Below are positions 4,006-52,841 of a stretch of DNA of 64,000 bases, piece by piece. The notes beneath the pieces are model-generated. The model was not told where the DNA came from, did not search any database, and saw only the letters and a list, made by a program, of their open reading frames with translations. The translations under genes and the position numbers were made by a program. The stretch's first letter is position 1; each line of letters opens with the position of its first letter. Origin of the DNA: Acidobacteriota bacterium (GTDB taxonomy: Bacteria > Acidobacteriota > Vicinamibacteria > Marinacidobacterales > Marinacidobacteraceae); contig JAJEAO010000033.1 in the NCBI GenBank assembly GCA_022822745.1, positions 16,630 through 80,629 on the forward strand, in the 5' to 3' direction.

Positions 4006-5016
4006 TCAGGCGGCCAGCACTCGAGCCCGGAAACCGCGATCTTCGCCCGCCGTCACGATGGCGCCCTCGGGGATCTTCGCGTCGAGGATGGCGAGGCCGA
4101 CGCCCGGGAGGTCGGGGGGAAACGCGCGGGGCCGATCGAAACCGGAAGTGAACCGCCCCGCCGGGCGTCCTTCGAGTCGGAGCCCGGCGGCCGGCGGCGG
4201 AGTCGCCGTTCCGGCCGGGAAGACGAGGCGGCGCAGGAGGCGCGGGATCCGGCCGCGATGCGCCTGGCGGGCGACGTACTCCTGACCGATGTAGCAGCCC
4301 TGACCGAGCCGGGCGTGGGCGGCGAGGCCGCACTCGGCGACTCGGGAGGCCTCGTCGAGCTCGGATCCCCACCGGGGTTCGCCGGCGGCGATGCGGAGGT
4401 AGCCGCGTTCCTCCGGGCGGGCCTCCGGACCGGACCGGCGGCCGAGGGACGCCGCGGCGTCCACGAGCCCGTTCGGAGCGTCGAGGAAACGAAGCCGCCA
4501 CGCCGGCCAGGGCCGGAACAGCCGTCGGATCACGAGCGTGGCGCCGCCGTCGCCGGGGAGATCGGCGCCCGACCCGGGGGGAAGCGCGGAGAGTTCGAGG
4601 CCTTCGGGGATCGGCCACTCCAGGTCGGCGAGGACATCGCCGATCGTCCGGTGCGCCCCGAACCCCTGCAGGAGCAGACTCCCGTTCGGTTCGCCGTCGA
4701 GCGGCGTCAGCTCCACATCGTCCGCGATCCGGTAGCGGTCGAGGCCGGTCAGGAGCGCGTCGCGCCGACGCCAGTCGGTCTCCAGCAAGATCGCATCCGA
4801 CGTCGTGGAAGCCGTGCCCGCCGCGATCAGCGCTCCCTTCGGAGTGAGCAGCGCCGTGCGCGAGACGCCGCCGACCGGCGGAACCTGCCCGGAGAGGATG
4901 CGCCGGAGGAAATCGGCCCGGTCCCGCCCGGTGACGCGGATCGCCTCGCTGCGGCGCGCCCGGCGCCAGCGCGCCGGCAGATCCCGGGGAATGTCGAAAC
5001 CCCGCGGCGCGGCCAT
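4006..5016 (-). CDS. YgfZ/GcvT folate-binding domain protein
   Basis: Contains the YgfZ-type signature LGQGCYIGQEYVARQAHRGRIPRLLRRL. Confidence 0.85.
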   Translation of the reverse strand: MAAPRGFDIPRDLPARWRRARRSEAIRVTGRDRADFLRRILSGQVPPVGGVSRTALLTPKGALIAAGTASTTSDAILLETDWRRRDALLTGLDRYRIADDVELTPLDGEPNGSLLLQGFGAHRTIGDVLADLEWPIPEGLELSALPPGSGADLPGDGGATLVIRRLFRPWPAWRLRFLDAPNGLVDAAASLGRRSGPEARPEERGYLRIAAGEPRWGSELDEASRVAECGLAAHARLGQGCYIGQEYVARQAHRGRIPRLLRRLVFPAGTATPPPAAGLRLEGRPAGRFTSGFDRPRAFPPDLPGVGLAILDAKIPEGAIVTAGEDRGFRARVLAA

Positions 5017-5059
5017 GAGGGCTCTATGCTACCGGCCCGCCGCTGCGGCGAACCGACCC

Positions 5060-6199
5060 ATGAGAGCTTTCGTCCCCCTGGTTCGCGAGGCCTTCGGCGA
5101 GGCCGTCGAGGCCCCGCGGCTCGACTTCGACCCGGCGGCCGGGCCCCGCTCGCTGCTCCCGCGTCCGGCGGCGGCGGACGCCGCGGCGCTGGACGACCTG
5201 CGCGAGTCGCTGGCGTGGTTCTGGAACACGAACGCCGACTGGGCGGGGAGGCAGGTGGCGGTCGGGGCTTCCTACGGAGCGCTGGTGGCCGCGCTCGTCG
5301 AGGTCTTCGGGCTGCGGCGCGGCGAGGCGGTCGTGCTGCCCCTGTCGGAGCCGGATGACCGCCTGGAGGCCTGGCGGGAAGCTCTCCCGGAGGGCGTGCG
5401 GATTCGGGAGTGGCGGCCGGATCGGCGGGGAAATCTCCCCGTCGCGAACCTCGACGCCCTGGTGGACGGGAACACCCGGATCGTGGTGCAGACGAAGGCG
5501 TGTCCAGTGACCGGGGCGCTGAACGAGACGATCCCGGTAGCGCAGAAGTTCGCGGGGACTCCGGTTCGGGTCGTGGCCGAGGCGAGCCATTTCCTCTCCC
5601 ACGGCTCGCTCGACATCCGCAACCTCCGTTGCGACGCGCTGATCGCGGCGGCGGACGGTCTGTTCGGCGCGCAGGGCGCGGCGCTCTGGCTGCGGGATCC
5701 GCCGGCCCGTCGCGAGCGGGGGGCCGTTGGCCCGGCGACCGTCGCGGCATGGGGCCGCTCGCTCGCCTACGTGGAGCGACTGGGGTCGTCGGAAGACGCA
5801 CCGGTCGCGCCTCCGTCGGAGAAGTTCGGCCGGCGGGAGGCGATGCGGCGGGGAATGCAGGCCATCCGGCAGGAGGAGCGGATCCTCGCGCGTCGGATGC
5901 TGCGGATCCTGGGGCGTTTCCGGCGCGTCCGGATCCTCGGGGAGTCGGACGAGGTTCGGGCCGCCGCCCGAGTGCCCACCTTCACCTTCGTGGTGAGGGG
6001 GAGAGAAGCGGAGGCCGTCGGCGACGCCCTTCGGCGGTCGGGCGTCGAGGTCGGGACCGGCTCGCTCGGGTCCGCCGCCACCCTGAAGGCCCTGGGGGTG
6101 GACCCCGGGGCGGGAGCGGTGCGGGTCGCGGTGGCGCACTACCACACCGCCGATGATGTGCGCCGCTTCGGCGACTGTCTCGGCGCCGCGCTGGGCTGA
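5060..6199 (+). CDS. Class V aminotransferase / cysteine-desulfurase-like protein
   Basis: Fold-type I PLP enzyme pattern: WFWNTNADWAGRQVAVGASYGALVAALVEVFGL, VVAEASHFLSHGSLDIRNLRCDALIAAADGLFGAQGAALW; internal ATG chosen at 5060. Confidence 0.65.
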   Translation: MRAFVPLVREAFGEAVEAPRLDFDPAAGPRSLLPRPAAADAAALDDLRESLAWFWNTNADWAGRQVAVGASYGALVAALVEVFGLRRGEAVVLPLSEPDDRLEAWREALPEGVRIREWRPDRRGNLPVANLDALVDGNTRIVVQTKACPVTGALNETIPVAQKFAGTPVRVVAEASHFLSHGSLDIRNLRCDALIAAADGLFGAQGAALWLRDPPARRERGAVGPATVAAWGRSLAYVERLGSSEDAPVAPPSEKFGRREAMRRGMQAIRQEERILARRMLRILGRFRRVRILGESDEVRAAARVPTFTFVVRGREAEAVGDALRRSGVEVGTGSLGSAATLKALGVDPGAGAVRVAVAHYHTADDVRRFGDCLGAALG

Positions 6200-16047: not shown

Positions 16048-18455
16048 CTACGGCCTGAGCACCACGCGACTCCCGGTCACGGACTCCACCCGGGCGCGGG
16101 TGTACGCCAGCGGGAAGTACTGGTGCCGCACCCAGAGCTCGAAGAGATCGCGGTAGTGGGGGCTCATCGGATCGCCCGACTGCCCCGGCGTGCTCGTGGC
16201 CACCGAGTTGTCCCAGTTCGATGGATCGAGGATGACCCGGAAACTGCCGCCGGAGGTCTGGTTCTCCCCGCCGCCGGTGTTGTTCACGGTGGACTCGTAA
16301 CCCCCGCGGGGCCAGGGACCGACCTCCAGCAGGGCGCGGGTCTCGTCATCCACGGCGTCCGCCAGGTAGTGCGTGATGTGGACATGCTTCATGGCGTCCT
16401 GGCCGTAGCGCCAGTTCGCGGGATCGGCGCCGAGCCGCGCCACGACATCGTCCACGCCGTTCGCGAACGCCTGGAGCAGCAGCTCGTCACGCCCCTCGAT
16501 GGGGTCCTCGCCGAACCGGCCGTCCGGGGCGAGCAGGTGGTCCAGCATCCGCTTCTTGTTGACCCGTCGCAGGAGGTTCCGGGCCGCCTCCGGGATCAGC
16601 AGCTCGCCCATGGCGGCGGACACCCGGCGCTCGAAGTGCCAGTACACCGTGGCCGCCGCGGATTCCCTGTCGAGGACGAAGTCCCACTCGGCCAGGAGCC
16701 GGATCTCCGGGCTGTCCTCCGGCTCGGCGAGGAACAGCAGGGGCACCAGGTTCCTCGCGACGACGCTCAGCTCGTCGTGCTGCTGGGCCATCATGTCCTG
16801 GACGGTGAAGCGGACGCCGCTGCGCATCAGCTCGTCCACCCGCAGGCCGCGCATCTCGTCGCCCCAGGTGAAGTGGAGCGCCTCCGGGTGGGGGTAGTCG
16901 GAAGCCACCGCCGGGGCCATCAGGTTGTTCGCGGTCCCCCAGAAGCCCTTTTCCGGGTTCTTCACCGAAGGCAGCGCCTTGATCGGGAGGTAGCCGCTCC
17001 ACTCGTAGCGCCCGTCCCCCGGCACCGGCACCAGGCCGCTCCAGTTCGCGTTCCGGATCGGGGAGACGCCGACCGCCTGGTAGCCGATGTTCCCGTGCAC
17101 ATCGCCCCAGATCATGTTCTCGGCCGGGATGCCGCTGTAGTTGCACGCCTCGACGAACTCCTCCCAGGTCTGCGCCTGGTTCATCCGCAGGCTGGCGAGG
17201 TAGGGCGAGTTCCCGATCTCGAGCCAGGCGGCGCGAAGCGCGTAGGCCTTGTGGTTCTCGTGGTCCTCGTGGAGCACGGGTCCGTGGCGGGTGTACTTGA
17301 GCGTCGCGGTGTGGTCGGGCTGCCCCCTGACCGGGATCGTCTCGGTCCGGGTCGTCATGGACTCCCACTCCCCGAGGTAGCGGTACTGGTTCGGGTCGTC
17401 GGGGTTCGTGTCGTAAACCATCAGGTCTTCGTTGTCCTGGCCGAACACGGTGAGCCCCCACCCGCCGGTTCCGTTGTGGCCGATCGAGATGCCGGGGAGC
17501 ACCGGTTCCCCGCCCCCGATGACCGACCAGCCAGGCCCTTCGAGGTGCGCGAAGTAGCGCAGCGACGGGGCCACGATCGTCCGGTGGGGGTCGTTCACGA
17601 TGAGCGGAAGCCCGGTCCAGGTGCGCTCGCCACCGACGACCCAGTTGTTCGAGCCGATGTGCTCGCCGGCGTCCACGAGCTGGAGCTCGCTCGGAAAGTC
17701 GTCCAGCAGGGCCAGCCGCTCGGCGTCGCGGTTCCGGTGTTCGGCGACGACATGCTCGGGTCGGAACCGGACCGGTCCCCGAAACGCGCGGTAGTAGTGG
17801 AGGATCTCGGGCCCGAGCAGCGAGCCGTCCACCGCCGGGTCGAGATCCAGCGCCGGCTGGCCCGGCCGGTACCAGTCGGTGTCCCGCAGGACCTCCGCGC
17901 CGACGGCGGCCACCGCCATCCCGAGGTTCAGCTCCTGGGTGACGTTCGACAGGAGTCCCTGGTGGCGGGAAATCACGACCTCCTCGGTCCACGGCTCGGG
18001 AAGGATGCCGAGCAGGCGGAACTCGAGGGGCAGGTTGTCCGGATCCTGGCGGGCCTCCGCGATCCGGGCGTTGATGCCCCGGACGAACGCCGGGATGATC
18101 GAGTCGCCTCGCGGGTGGTAGTGCCGCATCTCCTGCCCCATGTCCTTGCGGAACCGGTGGAGACGGACCCCGATGTCGCGGTCCAGTTCGGCGGGTCCGA
18201 GGATCTCCGCCAGGGTTCCGGTCGCCTGCCGTCGCCACATCTCGAACTGGAACAGCCGGGACTCCGCGGCCCGGTAGCCCTGGGCGAAGAAGAGGTCCTC
18301 CTCGGAGTCGGCGTAGATGTGATCGATGCCCCAGCGGTCCTGCAGGACTTCCACCGGCGCGGTCAGACCGCCGACCCGGCGGGTCTCGTCCTGGGCGGCG
18401 GCGGATGGCGCGAGGGCCGCGGCGGCGATGAGGAGGGCAAGGGACGGGGCGCGCA
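16048..18455 (-). CDS. Penicillin acylase family protein
   Basis: VEVLQDRWGIDHIYADSEEDLFFAQGY, Ser-nucleophile region SNNWVVGGERTWTGLPLIVNDPHR, signal peptide; GTG start inferred. Confidence 0.92.
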
Positions 18456-47473: not shown

Positions 47474-48718
47474 TCAGCGGCTTGCGATGTCGTACGCCAG
47501 CAGCACGTCCTGATCCCGCAGGTAGAGGAGCCCGTTCGAGACGACCGGGTGGGTCCAGGTGTTGCGCCGCGAACGGTCCTCCCGGGGAAACGCGAAGCGT
47601 CCCCGCTCCTCGTAGCCGCCGCGGGACGGTGCAAGGAGAACGGCTTCGCCGCGCTCGGTGAAGACGTAGATCCGCTCGTCGGCGAACGTGAGCGATCCCT
47701 TGCGGACGCCTCGGTCCCGCCAGAAGAGAGCGCCGGTCTCGATGTCGAGTGCGCTGAAGACGGATCCCGAGAAGCCGTAGAGAACGCCGTCGTGGAGGAT
47801 CGGGCTGGCGTGGTGCGCCCGGAGATTGCGGGTGAACCAGAGCTCGGTCGCCATCACGCCGCCCTCATCGTCGGCCCTCAGCTCGACGAGGGCGCCGCCG
47901 GTGCCGTAGTCCGAGCTCAGGAAGACGCGGGCGGCGCCCGGAGGCGCCGGGACCACGACGGGAGTGGCGATGTTCGCGGTGCGGTTCGAGGCGCCTTCGT
48001 AGCTCCAGAGCAGGGCGCCGTCCGCCGGGCGGACTCCCACGGCGCGCTCCCCGCTGAAGAAGACCACGTGGGAAGCGCCCGGAAGGTCCACGACCACCGG
48101 CGAGGCGTAGCCGGCCTCGTCCCCGGCGGTGGTCCACAGCGGCTCGCCGCTCTCCCGATCGAACGCGGCGAAGCCGGCGCTGCGGCCACCGGGAGAGACG
48201 AGCACCCGGTCTTCGACCACGAGCGGGGACTCGCTGATGCCCCAGGAGATGTTTCGCCCGCCGAGCTCGCCGATCAGATCCACGGTCCACGCCGTCTGCC
48301 CGGTCCCGGCGTCGAGCGAAGAGAGACGGCCGCTGGCGCCGAGGACGACGACCTGCCCGTCCACGACGGTGGGCGCCGACCGCGGGCCATCGCCTCGTCC
48401 GTCCCGGTACCCGGCGCCGTGCGGCGTGGACCAGCGCAGGGCGCCGGATCGCGCGTCGAGGGCGAAGACCCACTCCCGGCCCGAGACCATGCCGAGCGTG
48501 AACGCCCGGCCCTCCGTGATGGACACCGTGGAGTAGCCGGCGCCGAGTCCGTCGGCGCGAAACGCGAGATCGGGACCCTCGTCCGGCCACGCGGAGAGCA
48601 GGCCGGTCTCGAGCGAGACCCCGTCGCGATTCGGACCGCGCCACTGCGGCCAGTCCTCGGCGCCCGAGGCGCCGGCCGTGATCGAGAGGAGGGTGGCCGC
48701 GAGGACAGGACGATTCAT
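47474..48718 (-). CDS. PQQ-binding-like beta-propeller protein
   Basis: AEDWPQWRGPNRDGVSLETGLLSAWPDEGP plus repeated propeller blades. Confidence 0.85.
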   Translation of the reverse strand: MNRPVLAATLLSITAGASGAEDWPQWRGPNRDGVSLETGLLSAWPDEGPDLAFRADGLGAGYSTVSITEGRAFTLGMVSGREWVFALDARSGALRWSTPHGAGYRDGRGDGPRSAPTVVDGQVVVLGASGRLSSLDAGTGQTAWTVDLIGELGGRNISWGISESPLVVEDRVLVSPGGRSAGFAAFDRESGEPLWTTAGDEAGYASPVVVDLPGASHVVFFSGERAVGVRPADGALLWSYEGASNRTANIATPVVVPAPPGAARVFLSSDYGTGGALVELRADDEGGVMATELWFTRNLRAHHASPILHDGVLYGFSGSVFSALDIETGALFWRDRGVRKGSLTFADERIYVFTERGEAVLLAPSRGGYEERGRFAFPREDRSRRNTWTHPVVSNGLLYLRDQDVLLAYDIASR

Positions 48719-49707
48719 CGGTTCCCCTCCGCGAGCGCCCGGCGCGCCGGAGGCAGCGCGGCGTCCCGCAGGGCGCCCACGAGCTCCGCCAGGCGCTCGC
48801 CGGCGGCGGCGCGATCGAGATTCCCGGGCGCGATGCGGTCCGGCCCCGGAATCTCCACCATGAAGACGTACACCAGGGCATCGCCGGAAGGCGTTCCCGC
48901 GGGCTGGTAGTAGCCCGACAGGACGCGGGTCAGCGGATCGGAGTTCAGCGAGCCGCCCTTGAAGTGGTGGGCGCCGTGCTCGGTTTCCTCGAGGAACAGG
49001 ACGTCGCGAATCTCCTCGTGGAGCGAGGGCGAGATCCCGGGCAGATCGCCCCGGGCGATGGCGGCGAGGACGGCGGCCAGCGAGGCGGCGGTCGCCGTGT
49101 TGTCGCCGGTCACGTCGCGGGCGGCCAGCATGTAGCGGCGGGAATGGATGCCGCCGAAGCCCGGGTGGCGGGCGTGGATCTTCGCCGTCAGCCCTTCCGG
49201 GCCGCCGAGGGACGCGGTCGTCAGGTTCGCGGCGGCGTTGTACACCGCGTTCGAGACGCCGGTCCCGCGAATCATGTGGAACCCGACGGTCCGGGTCGGG
49301 GCCGTGGTCAGCGCCGCCTCGATCTCGGCCCGGGTCTCGGCGTCGAAGTGGGCGATCGCGGGGTGGCTCGGGTTGCCGACCACGGCGGCCGCGTCCGGCG
49401 TGGCTTCGTCGAGCGCGTCGCTGCGGGCAGCGAAGAGTTCCACCAGGTACGAGGTCTTGATCGAACTCGCGGCGGGGCGGGGAACGTCAGCGGCTTCGGC
49501 GTGGAGCGGAACGCCGTCGCTCTCCGAGAGGTCGGCGGGACCGATCCAGGCGCTGAAGCCGAGCCCGTCGAAGTCGGTCGTCGAAACCGAGGCGAGAGCG
49601 GACGGGATGTCGAAGCCCGCTGTCGTCGGGGCCTCCGCCGGACCCGAACCCGAGCCGCAGCCGAAGAGGAGCGACGCGGCCCCGGTGAGGAGAAGTCGTC
49701 CAGGCAT
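48715..49707 (-). CDS. Serine hydrolase (beta-lactamase-like) lipoprotein
   Basis: Start MPGRLLLTGAASLLFGCGSG (lipobox); SxxK-like AASSIKTSYLVELF; KGG motif HHFKGGSL. Confidence 0.7.
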   Translation of the reverse strand: MPGRLLLTGAASLLFGCGSGSGPAEAPTTAGFDIPSALASVSTTDFDGLGFSAWIGPADLSESDGVPLHAEAADVPRPAASSIKTSYLVELFAARSDALDEATPDAAAVVGNPSHPAIAHFDAETRAEIEAALTTAPTRTVGFHMIRGTGVSNAVYNAAANLTTASLGGPEGLTAKIHARHPGFGGIHSRRYMLAARDVTGDNTATAASLAAVLAAIARGDLPGISPSLHEEIRDVLFLEETEHGAHHFKGGSLNSDPLTRVLSGYYQPAGTPSGDALVYVFMVEIPGPDRIAPGNLDRAAAGERLAELVGALRDAALPPARRALAEGNR

Positions 49708-49760: not shown

Positions 49761-49985
49761 TCAGGCCTCGCGTCCGTCGTTCGGGTCGAGAGCGCCGGAG
49801 TCGCGAGCCCGGACGAGCGCCGTGGTGATGCGATCGAAGGCGCTTTCGAGGCCCCGGAGGCGCCGCCGCAGATCGGCGACATCGCGGAGGAGGTTCCCGA
49901 TTGCGCGCCGCAGGCACACGTGGGAGGCGAGGATCACGAGAAGGATGGCGAGCGTCGGAATCAGGATATCGAGGACTGGTGTCAT
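49761..49985 (-). CDS. Small membrane coiled-coil protein, tandem family copy 1 (divergent)
   Basis: MTPVLDILIPTLAILLVILASHVCLRRAIGNLLRDVADLRRRLRGLESAF... Confidence 0.7.
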   Translation of the reverse strand: MTPVLDILIPTLAILLVILASHVCLRRAIGNLLRDVADLRRRLRGLESAFDRITTALVRARDSGALDPNDGREA

Positions 49986-50018
49986 CGTCGCGGCGCTGGC
50001 GGGAGGCAGGGGTTCGGG

Positions 50019-50243
50019 TCAGTCGTTGCGGCCGCGCGCCCGATTCGGTGCGGGCGAGCTCGCGGCGGGGACGAGCGCCTCCAGGAACCCCTCGACGCGC
50101 GCCATCCGCTCGCGCAACCCGGCGATATCGCGGTGGATGCCGGCGATGTCTCGCCGCATGTTTCGCCGCAGGAACACATGGGAGGCGAGGATGGCGAGGA
50201 CGATCGAGACCGTCGGAATCAGGACTTCGAGCGGCGGAGTCAT
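50019..50243 (-). CDS. Small membrane coiled-coil protein, tandem family copy 2
   Basis: MTPPLEVLIPTVSIVLAILASHVFLRRNMRRDIAGIHRDIAGLRERMARVEGFLEALVPAASS... Confidence 0.75.
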   Translation of the reverse strand: MTPPLEVLIPTVSIVLAILASHVFLRRNMRRDIAGIHRDIAGLRERMARVEGFLEALVPAASSPAPNRARGRND

Positions 50244-50289
50244 GGGCTCCATCCTGGCGCGCCGGGGACGGCCTTCGCCTTCGGTTGCC

Positions 50290-50523
50290 TCAGTCGCGCT
50301 GTCCGGGGCTCCGGTTCGGCGTGGAGGGGACGAGAGCCTCGAGGAAGCCCTCGACGCGCGCCATCCGCTCGCGCAGTCCGGCGATGTCGCGATGGATGCC
50401 CGCGATGTCGCGATGGAGGCCGGCGACATCTCGTCGCATGTCCCGCCGCAGGGACACATGGGAGGCGATGATCGCGAGGACGATGGAGATCGTCGGGATC
50501 AGGACTTCGAGCGGCGGAGTCAT
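50290..50523 (-). CDS. Small membrane coiled-coil protein, tandem family copy 3
   Basis: MTPPLEVLIPTISIVLAIIASHVSLRRDMRRDVAGLHRDIAGIHRDIAGLRERMARVEGFLEALVPSTPNRSPGQRD. Confidence 0.75.
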   Translation of the reverse strand: MTPPLEVLIPTISIVLAIIASHVSLRRDMRRDVAGLHRDIAGIHRDIAGLRERMARVEGFLEALVPSTPNRSPGQRD

Positions 50524-50571
50524 GGGCTCCAGTCTAGTGCGCGCCACGGACGGCCGCCGCCCCGGGCCGCC

Positions 50572-50784
50572 TCAGTCGCGCTGTCCGGAGCTCCGGTTCG
50601 GCGTGGAGGGGACGAGAGCCCTCAGGAAACCCTCGACGCGCGCCATCCGTTCGCGCAGCCCGGCGATGTCGCGATGGAGGCCGGCGACGTTTCGCCGCAT
50701 GTTTCGCCGCAGGGACACATGGGAGGCGAGGATCGCGAGGACGATGGAGGTCGTCGGGATCAGGACTTCGAGCGGCGGAGCCAT
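50572..50784 (-). CDS. Small membrane coiled-coil protein, tandem family copy 4
   Basis: MAPPLEVLIPTTSIVLAILASHVSLRRNMRRNVAGLHRDIAGLRERMARVEGFLRALVPSTPNRSSGQRD. Confidence 0.75.
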   Translation of the reverse strand: MAPPLEVLIPTTSIVLAILASHVSLRRNMRRNVAGLHRDIAGLRERMARVEGFLRALVPSTPNRSSGQRD

Positions 50785-50829: not shown

Positions 50830-50859
50830 GGGCGCCGGCGCCCGAGAGCGCCGGCGCCC
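50830..50859 (-). terminator. Perfect 12-bp GC hairpin downstream of groEL (gggcgccggcgc-ccgaga-gcgccggcgccc)
   Basis: Exact reverse-complement arms about 20 bp after the groEL stop; weak U-tract on the minus strand. Confidence 0.65.

Positions 50860-50878: not shown

Positions 50879-52841
<1,963 letters not shown>

Follow-up and report, generated by a model that had tools for sequence, protein, structure and literature searches.

A tandem array of small membrane-anchored coiled-coil genes behind groEL in an Acidobacteriota genome: candidate trimeric stalks that vary in length by whole coil units

Within a 64,000-nucleotide stretch of an Acidobacteriota genome (assembly GCA_022822745.1, contig JAJEAO010000033.1, forward-strand positions 16,630 to 80,629; hereafter the window), four homologous open reading frames (ORFs) follow one another on the minus strand at positions 49761-50784, behind groEL. 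Each runs from ATG to TGA, and we refer to them as c1, c2, c3, and c4 (74, 74, 77, and 70 amino acids [aa], respectively), c4 being nearest to groEL. This agrees with a preliminary description of the window, which had pointed out four tandem same-strand ORFs of ~70 to 78 aa, each with an N-terminal transmembrane (TM) segment. By homology, the array belongs to a larger, dispersed family and represents its local expansion. We consider the chances somewhat better than even that the products form homotrimeric stalks that are anchored in the membrane, probably face the cytoplasm, and change in length by whole coil units as they evolve.

Protein identity is 83 to 90% among c2, c3, and c4 and 46% between c1 and c3, so the earlier remark that copy 1 is strongly diverged was correct. 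Since the best matches of c1 among 75 family members are c2 to c4 (55, 51, and 50 bits; next sequence, 34 bits), all four copies stem from one local ancestor and their likeness is not due to chance. Tandem Repeats Finder reported a 282-bp unit present twice and a 21-bp unit present 2.2 times (positions 50381-50426, 92% match). The c4/c3 and c3/c2 spacers (46 to 48 bp) are homologous, which indicates that the duplicated unit takes in the upstream region. In the alignment, c3 differs from c2 and c4 by a single insertion of exactly 21 bp, in register. This insertion, together with the same behavior in five other clusters described below, supports the earlier proposal of tandem duplication with gain and loss of whole heptads. 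The accompanying count of one to three HRDIAG(L/I) units per copy stands in part: the copies do differ, but exact HRDIAG occurs zero, one, two, and one times in c1 to c4, and inclusion of a variant first unit (RRDVAG, RRDIAG, or RRNVAG) gives two, three, and two units in c2 to c4. c1 is without HRDIAG yet has its own perfect a/d heptad pattern. Among c2 to c4, synonymous divergence (dS) is 0.13 to 0.37 and the ratio of nonsynonymous to synonymous divergence (dN/dS) is 0.28 to 0.52; in comparisons with c1, dN/dS is 0.63 to 0.75. The array copies are under mild purifying selection, and the neutral substitution pattern against which the preliminary description had cautioned was not seen. In 12 of 13 other close family pairs, dN/dS is 0.10 to 0.53.

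The same layout recurs in all family members: a short N terminus is followed by a single TM helix, then by a coil ranging from 0 to >100 residues, and then by a C-terminal block (type, LRERMARVEGLLEGF). Each window copy has a single N-terminal hydrophobic segment, and the coiled coil previously claimed for each is borne out by its heptad positions. In the four copies, every a/d position between residue 28 and the coil's end is hydrophobic (9/9, 11/11, 9/9, and 8/8), with few hydrophobic residues elsewhere (2/22, 2/27, 2/22, and 1/19). The C-terminal block contains R-h-x-x-h-E, published as a motif that directs coiled coils to form parallel trimers, its register being Arg(g)-h(a)-x-x-h(d)-Glu(e) (PMC3653964). 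All four copies carry this motif in exact g-a-d-e register; in alignments of the family, R53 and E58 do not vary. When the a/d register was read from the upstream coil alone, a test independent of motif selection, Arg fell at position g in 49 of 57 members. The most conserved element is the C-terminal trimerization motif, rather than the HRDIAG unit, and we infer a parallel homotrimer of coils. AlphaFold2 modeled c3 as a single helix over residues 4 to 64 (mean predicted local distance difference test score, 81). Mean charge flanking the TM helix is -0.65 before it and +0.76 after it, and the C-terminal side is more positive in 51 of 68 members; the topology is probably N-out, C-in, with the coil facing the cytoplasm.

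Heptads, hendecads, and 18-residue periods are all helix periodicities compatible with coiled coils (PMC4786415), and changes in coil length largely follow them. The best internal repeat lag among 25 repeat-bearing members was most often 11 (eleven members) or 7 (ten members); two members had 14 or 18, and two others had 4 and 6. In five other tandem clusters, from this and other genomes, length steps were mostly 7, 11, 18, or 22 residues. Gaps between near copies were 7, 7, 11, 14, 18, 22, 22, and 4 (that is, 11 - 7), plus a few short gaps in anchors or tails. Because these five clusters behave like the array, variation in coiled-coil length is a family trait. DNA repeats free of constraint would hardly be expected to show such a 7/11 pattern, which is what should result if coil-preserving changes alone survive. 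Copying an existing unit keeps its length, so the events are not all independent tests; the recurrence of 7 and 11 across unrelated lineages is an independent one. A tandem pair of long members (149 and 160 aa) on contig C43 of this genome (G000; locus L051, positions 4914-5887) has many near-identical 11-residue units (REDFTGFKQEI) and is flanked by a TonB-receptor-like gene and a gene for prolyl oligopeptidase.

The family is spread well beyond the array. A single-copy query returned about ten weaker paralogues in the same 3.5-Mb genome, and a profile search of it gave 26 matches at ~16 loci, with ~20 complete proteins having TM helix, coil, and motif. Tandem pairs occur on two further contigs (C105 and C43). 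A minimal, repeat-free member on contig C104 (L097) shares the TM sequence of the array, SIVxAIxxSH. ASH or VSH at the cytoplasmic end of the TM helix, as in the array, was seen in this member and in L134 of genome G183, and the members sharing it include one from another bacterial family of the class. Searching 84,980 species turned up close relatives at 21 loci, which belong to several lineages. Relatives that share the layout are present in Gemmatimonadota, Alphaproteobacteria, and Gammaproteobacteria, and the protein layout is kept across phyla despite divergent DNA. In the phylum to which the window belongs, the family is uncommon and unevenly distributed, being present in 20 of 193 genomes of the class and in 6 of 396 genomes sampled from the phylum; genomes that have it often carry several copies. 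At least 17 of the 21 named loci come from sponge-derived metagenome-assembled genomes (MAGs): eight are from Ircinia-sponge MAGs ('jk18'; PMC9531527), eight carry codes (RHO, APA, COS, and CAR) that match sponges of PMC8163846, their sponge origin being deduced from these codes, and one is labeled 'sponge', with two others in the same named genus, Porisulfidus. Our literature searches did not turn up a description of the family.

Several observations weigh against reading these proteins as trimeric, cytoplasm-facing stalks. The strict motif R[ILVM]xx[LIV]E occurs in 73 of 75 members, versus 3.3 expected from shuffled tails, a frequency that arises partly by construction because members were collected with a profile containing the motif. 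The AlphaFold2 model of c3 is a monomer with a low predicted template modeling score (0.35), and the positive-inside bias is modest, with 6 of 68 members showing the opposite and 11 neutral. The high dN/dS of c1 means that this copy is possibly weakly constrained, and a neighbor analysis of the family loci found no shared or fixed partner gene.

We take the four ORFs to result from recent tandem expansion of one member of the dispersed family. If the stalk reading holds, each protein would be one continuous helix, from an N-terminal TM anchor through a coil of variable length to the C-terminal motif, which would hold three parallel chains together. The resulting homotrimeric stalk would reach into the cytoplasm, and mixed trimers between near-identical copies might form. 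Recombination could then gain or lose one coil-compatible unit (7 or 11 residues) to give a new length, with anchor and trimerization motif fixed, and family members would have been duplicated and dispersed with their own promoters. The most likely role for such a protein would be as an inner-membrane scaffold or spacer, diversified by copying. More tentatively, and at well under even odds, the family may be an undescribed one of membrane-anchored homotrimeric rods, with ~20 members that differ in length per genome, found in several sponge-associated phyla, separately promoted, and changing only in 7- or 11-residue steps, which would act as intracellular molecular rulers or scaffolds tied to symbiosis.

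A stalk pointing outward (N-in, C-out) would instead stand in the periplasm, where the coiled coils of Lpp and FtsL/FtsB are located, and would act there as a length-setting spacer or tether. A trimer with whole-heptad steps does resemble the engineered Lpp+21, a three-heptad insertion into trimeric Lpp (PMC8824477). However, the TM-flanking charges favor C-in, and c1 to c4 have neither an N-terminal lipobox cysteine nor a C-terminal lysine (they end in REA, RND, or QRD). Nor did any member score above the Pfam or NCBIfam cutoffs for FtsB/DivIC or FtsL (one member each for DivIC, at an E value of 0.21, and FtsL_Actino, at 0.014). We therefore regard a periplasmic spacer as unlikely.

We give similarly little credence to a semi-selfish small-gene cassette, spread and maintained chiefly by being duplicated and dispersed and of little or no use to the host, a reading that would account for the many copies per genome, the lack of fixed neighbors, and the patchy distribution. 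Sequences upstream of the genes also fit it. A promoter-like TANNNT hexamer lies 5 to 28 bases upstream of the start in 11 of 20 members of this genome (1.1 in shuffles; 5 of 56 control gene starts), being kept within the array by c3 only (TAGACT). In sponge gammaproteobacteria (L021-L025 and L032), ~100 bp of conserved noncoding DNA moves with copies at different places, which suggests a copied promoter cassette. Against such a cassette, dN/dS is 0.10 to 0.38 in most close pairs, motif and register are strictly kept, no transposase or terminal repeats were found with it, and there were no relatives in phage, plasmid, or viral (IMG/VR) collections.

Membership in a known family is not established. 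Searches of Pfam, NCBIfam, PHROGs, and PADLOC gave no match above cutoff, with chance-level coiled-coil matches only, and PADLOC, PHROGs, and the mobile-element collections gave no match that would mark an anti-phage defense, phage, or plasmid protein. A sequence search of the PDB returned generic coiled coils, of which 7o97 (whole-sequence E value, 7e-4; best-stretch i-Evalue, 0.48) was rejected as a match of composition, not homology. PspB is short, with an N-terminal TM helix and a cytoplasmic helix. Its comparable size and layout would fit a membrane stress sensor or regulator whose cytoplasmic amphipathic helix recruits a soluble partner, but no member matches PF06667 (the best score in the genome, 11.1 bits against a cutoff of 25.6, belongs to a nonmember), and we think a PspB-like role improbable.

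The position of the array might suggest an accessory of the groESL operon, induced together with it by heat. The array begins 94 bp after groEL on the same strand, and no promoter consensus was detected between groEL and c4 (scans for sigma-70 and terminator consensus sequences found no match). In an alphaproteobacterial sponge MAG (region L034:5842-8155), another member lies ~60 bp after tRNA-Pro(TGG) and tail to tail with that genome's groEL-type ORF. This second groEL neighborhood is possibly a coincidence; tRNA adjacency is limited to closely related alphaproteobacterial loci. However, a perfect GC-rich hairpin stands between groEL and c4, and an equivalent hairpin follows groEL at six of seven groEL loci from the same bacterial family, ending in a T-tract in most, with unrelated DNA beyond, which indicates that the groEL-array arrangement is lineage specific. 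A position beside groEL is not conserved in family relatives. The ~16 other family loci of this genome sit elsewhere, and members adjoin LepA, glutamate synthase, acetolactate synthase, homocitrate synthase, and other housekeeping genes. The link to groEL implied by the preliminary description is thus not supported, and we judge a groESL accessory very unlikely. In the window, the hairpin keeps the stem seen in related genomes and its T-tract is decayed (CCCTTCGCATT), so some read-through into the array could occur. The window GroEL shares 70% identity with its counterpart in Candidatus Palauibacter (Gemmatimonadota) and 63 to 65% with proteobacterial GroELs. On its other side, the array is bounded by a gene that starts at 49707 (48715-49707, minus strand), lies directly downstream of c1, and has a lipoprotein-like product that weakly matches Beta-lactamase2 (PF13354).

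Least credible of all are spurious ORFs held open by chance in a GC-rich repeat: the ORFs are short, lie in GC-rich DNA, and overlap long antisense ORFs, but their differences are biased to third positions, indels are in frame only, dN/dS is below 1, and the layout is conserved across phyla while the DNA diverges.

Table 1. Features of the array and its upstream flank, in window coordinates
Feature	Position	Strand	Remarks
Copy c4, 70 aa	50572..50784	-	TM (LEVLIPTTSIVLAILASHVSLRR), two heptads, RMARVE motif; 90% identity to c3
Copy c3, 77 aa	50290..50523	-	One extra heptad (HRDIAGI); TAGACT promoter-like hexamer immediately 5' of start
Copy c2, 74 aa	50019..50243	-	In-frame upstream ATG at 50252 is an alternative possible start
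Copy c1, 74 aa	49761..49985	-	Oldest, most diverged; keeps TM, perfect a/d heptads, and R-h-x-x-h-E as RLRGLE
c3 repeat tract, 21-bp units (RRDVAGL-HRDIAGI-HRDIAGL)	50377..50429 (approximate limits)	-	One unit above c2 and c4
groEL (Cpn60), upstream neighbor, outside the system	50879..52525	-	PF00118, E 4.8e-76
GC-rich hairpin between groEL stop and c4	50830..50859	-	Likely degenerate groEL terminator; fold -32.1 kcal/mol, z -2.9

Annotation of small membrane proteins is poor, and the four libraries checked lack this family despite ~20 copies in a 3.5-Mb genome. It offers a clean natural experiment in coiled-coil evolution, in which anchor and motif are fixed and length is free to change in 7- or 11-residue steps. 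If the association with sponges is true, it would also be a new gene family common to unrelated symbionts.

Among known systems, PspB (PF06667) is alike in its ~75 aa, N-terminal TM helix, and cytoplasmic helix, whereas the members have no sequence match to it, occur in multiple copies, and carry heptad repeats. DUF1640/MCUR1 proteins (PMC4786415) include small membrane proteins of prokaryotes that bear a coiled-coil stalk; that stalk is C-terminal and starts with a beta-layer motif, whereas the members have an N-terminal TM helix and no Pfam match, and the motif ([aliphatic]-A-T-K-[polar]-[DE]) is absent from c1 to c4. Stalks of trimeric adhesins such as NadA3 (PMC6191539) contain 11-residue (undecad) units in trimeric coiled coils, and so would the predicted trimers of members with such units; these adhesins are large surface proteins, and we do not claim homology. 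Lpp, with its engineered lengthened form Lpp+21 (PMC8824477), is likewise a small trimeric coiled coil on a membrane anchor that can change length by whole heptads, the trimer being predicted in our case. Lpp, however, has an outer-membrane lipid anchor and is linked to peptidoglycan, whereas the members have a TM helix, neither lipobox nor C-terminal Lys, a probable location on the cytoplasmic side, and natural length variation. Finally, coronin-1, GCN4p-M3, and engineered cortexillin (PMC3653964) have the same motif in the same g-a-d-e register on a short coil. There it occurs in domains of unrelated soluble proteins, whereas here it makes up the nearly invariant C terminus of a protein that stands alone and is anchored in the membrane.
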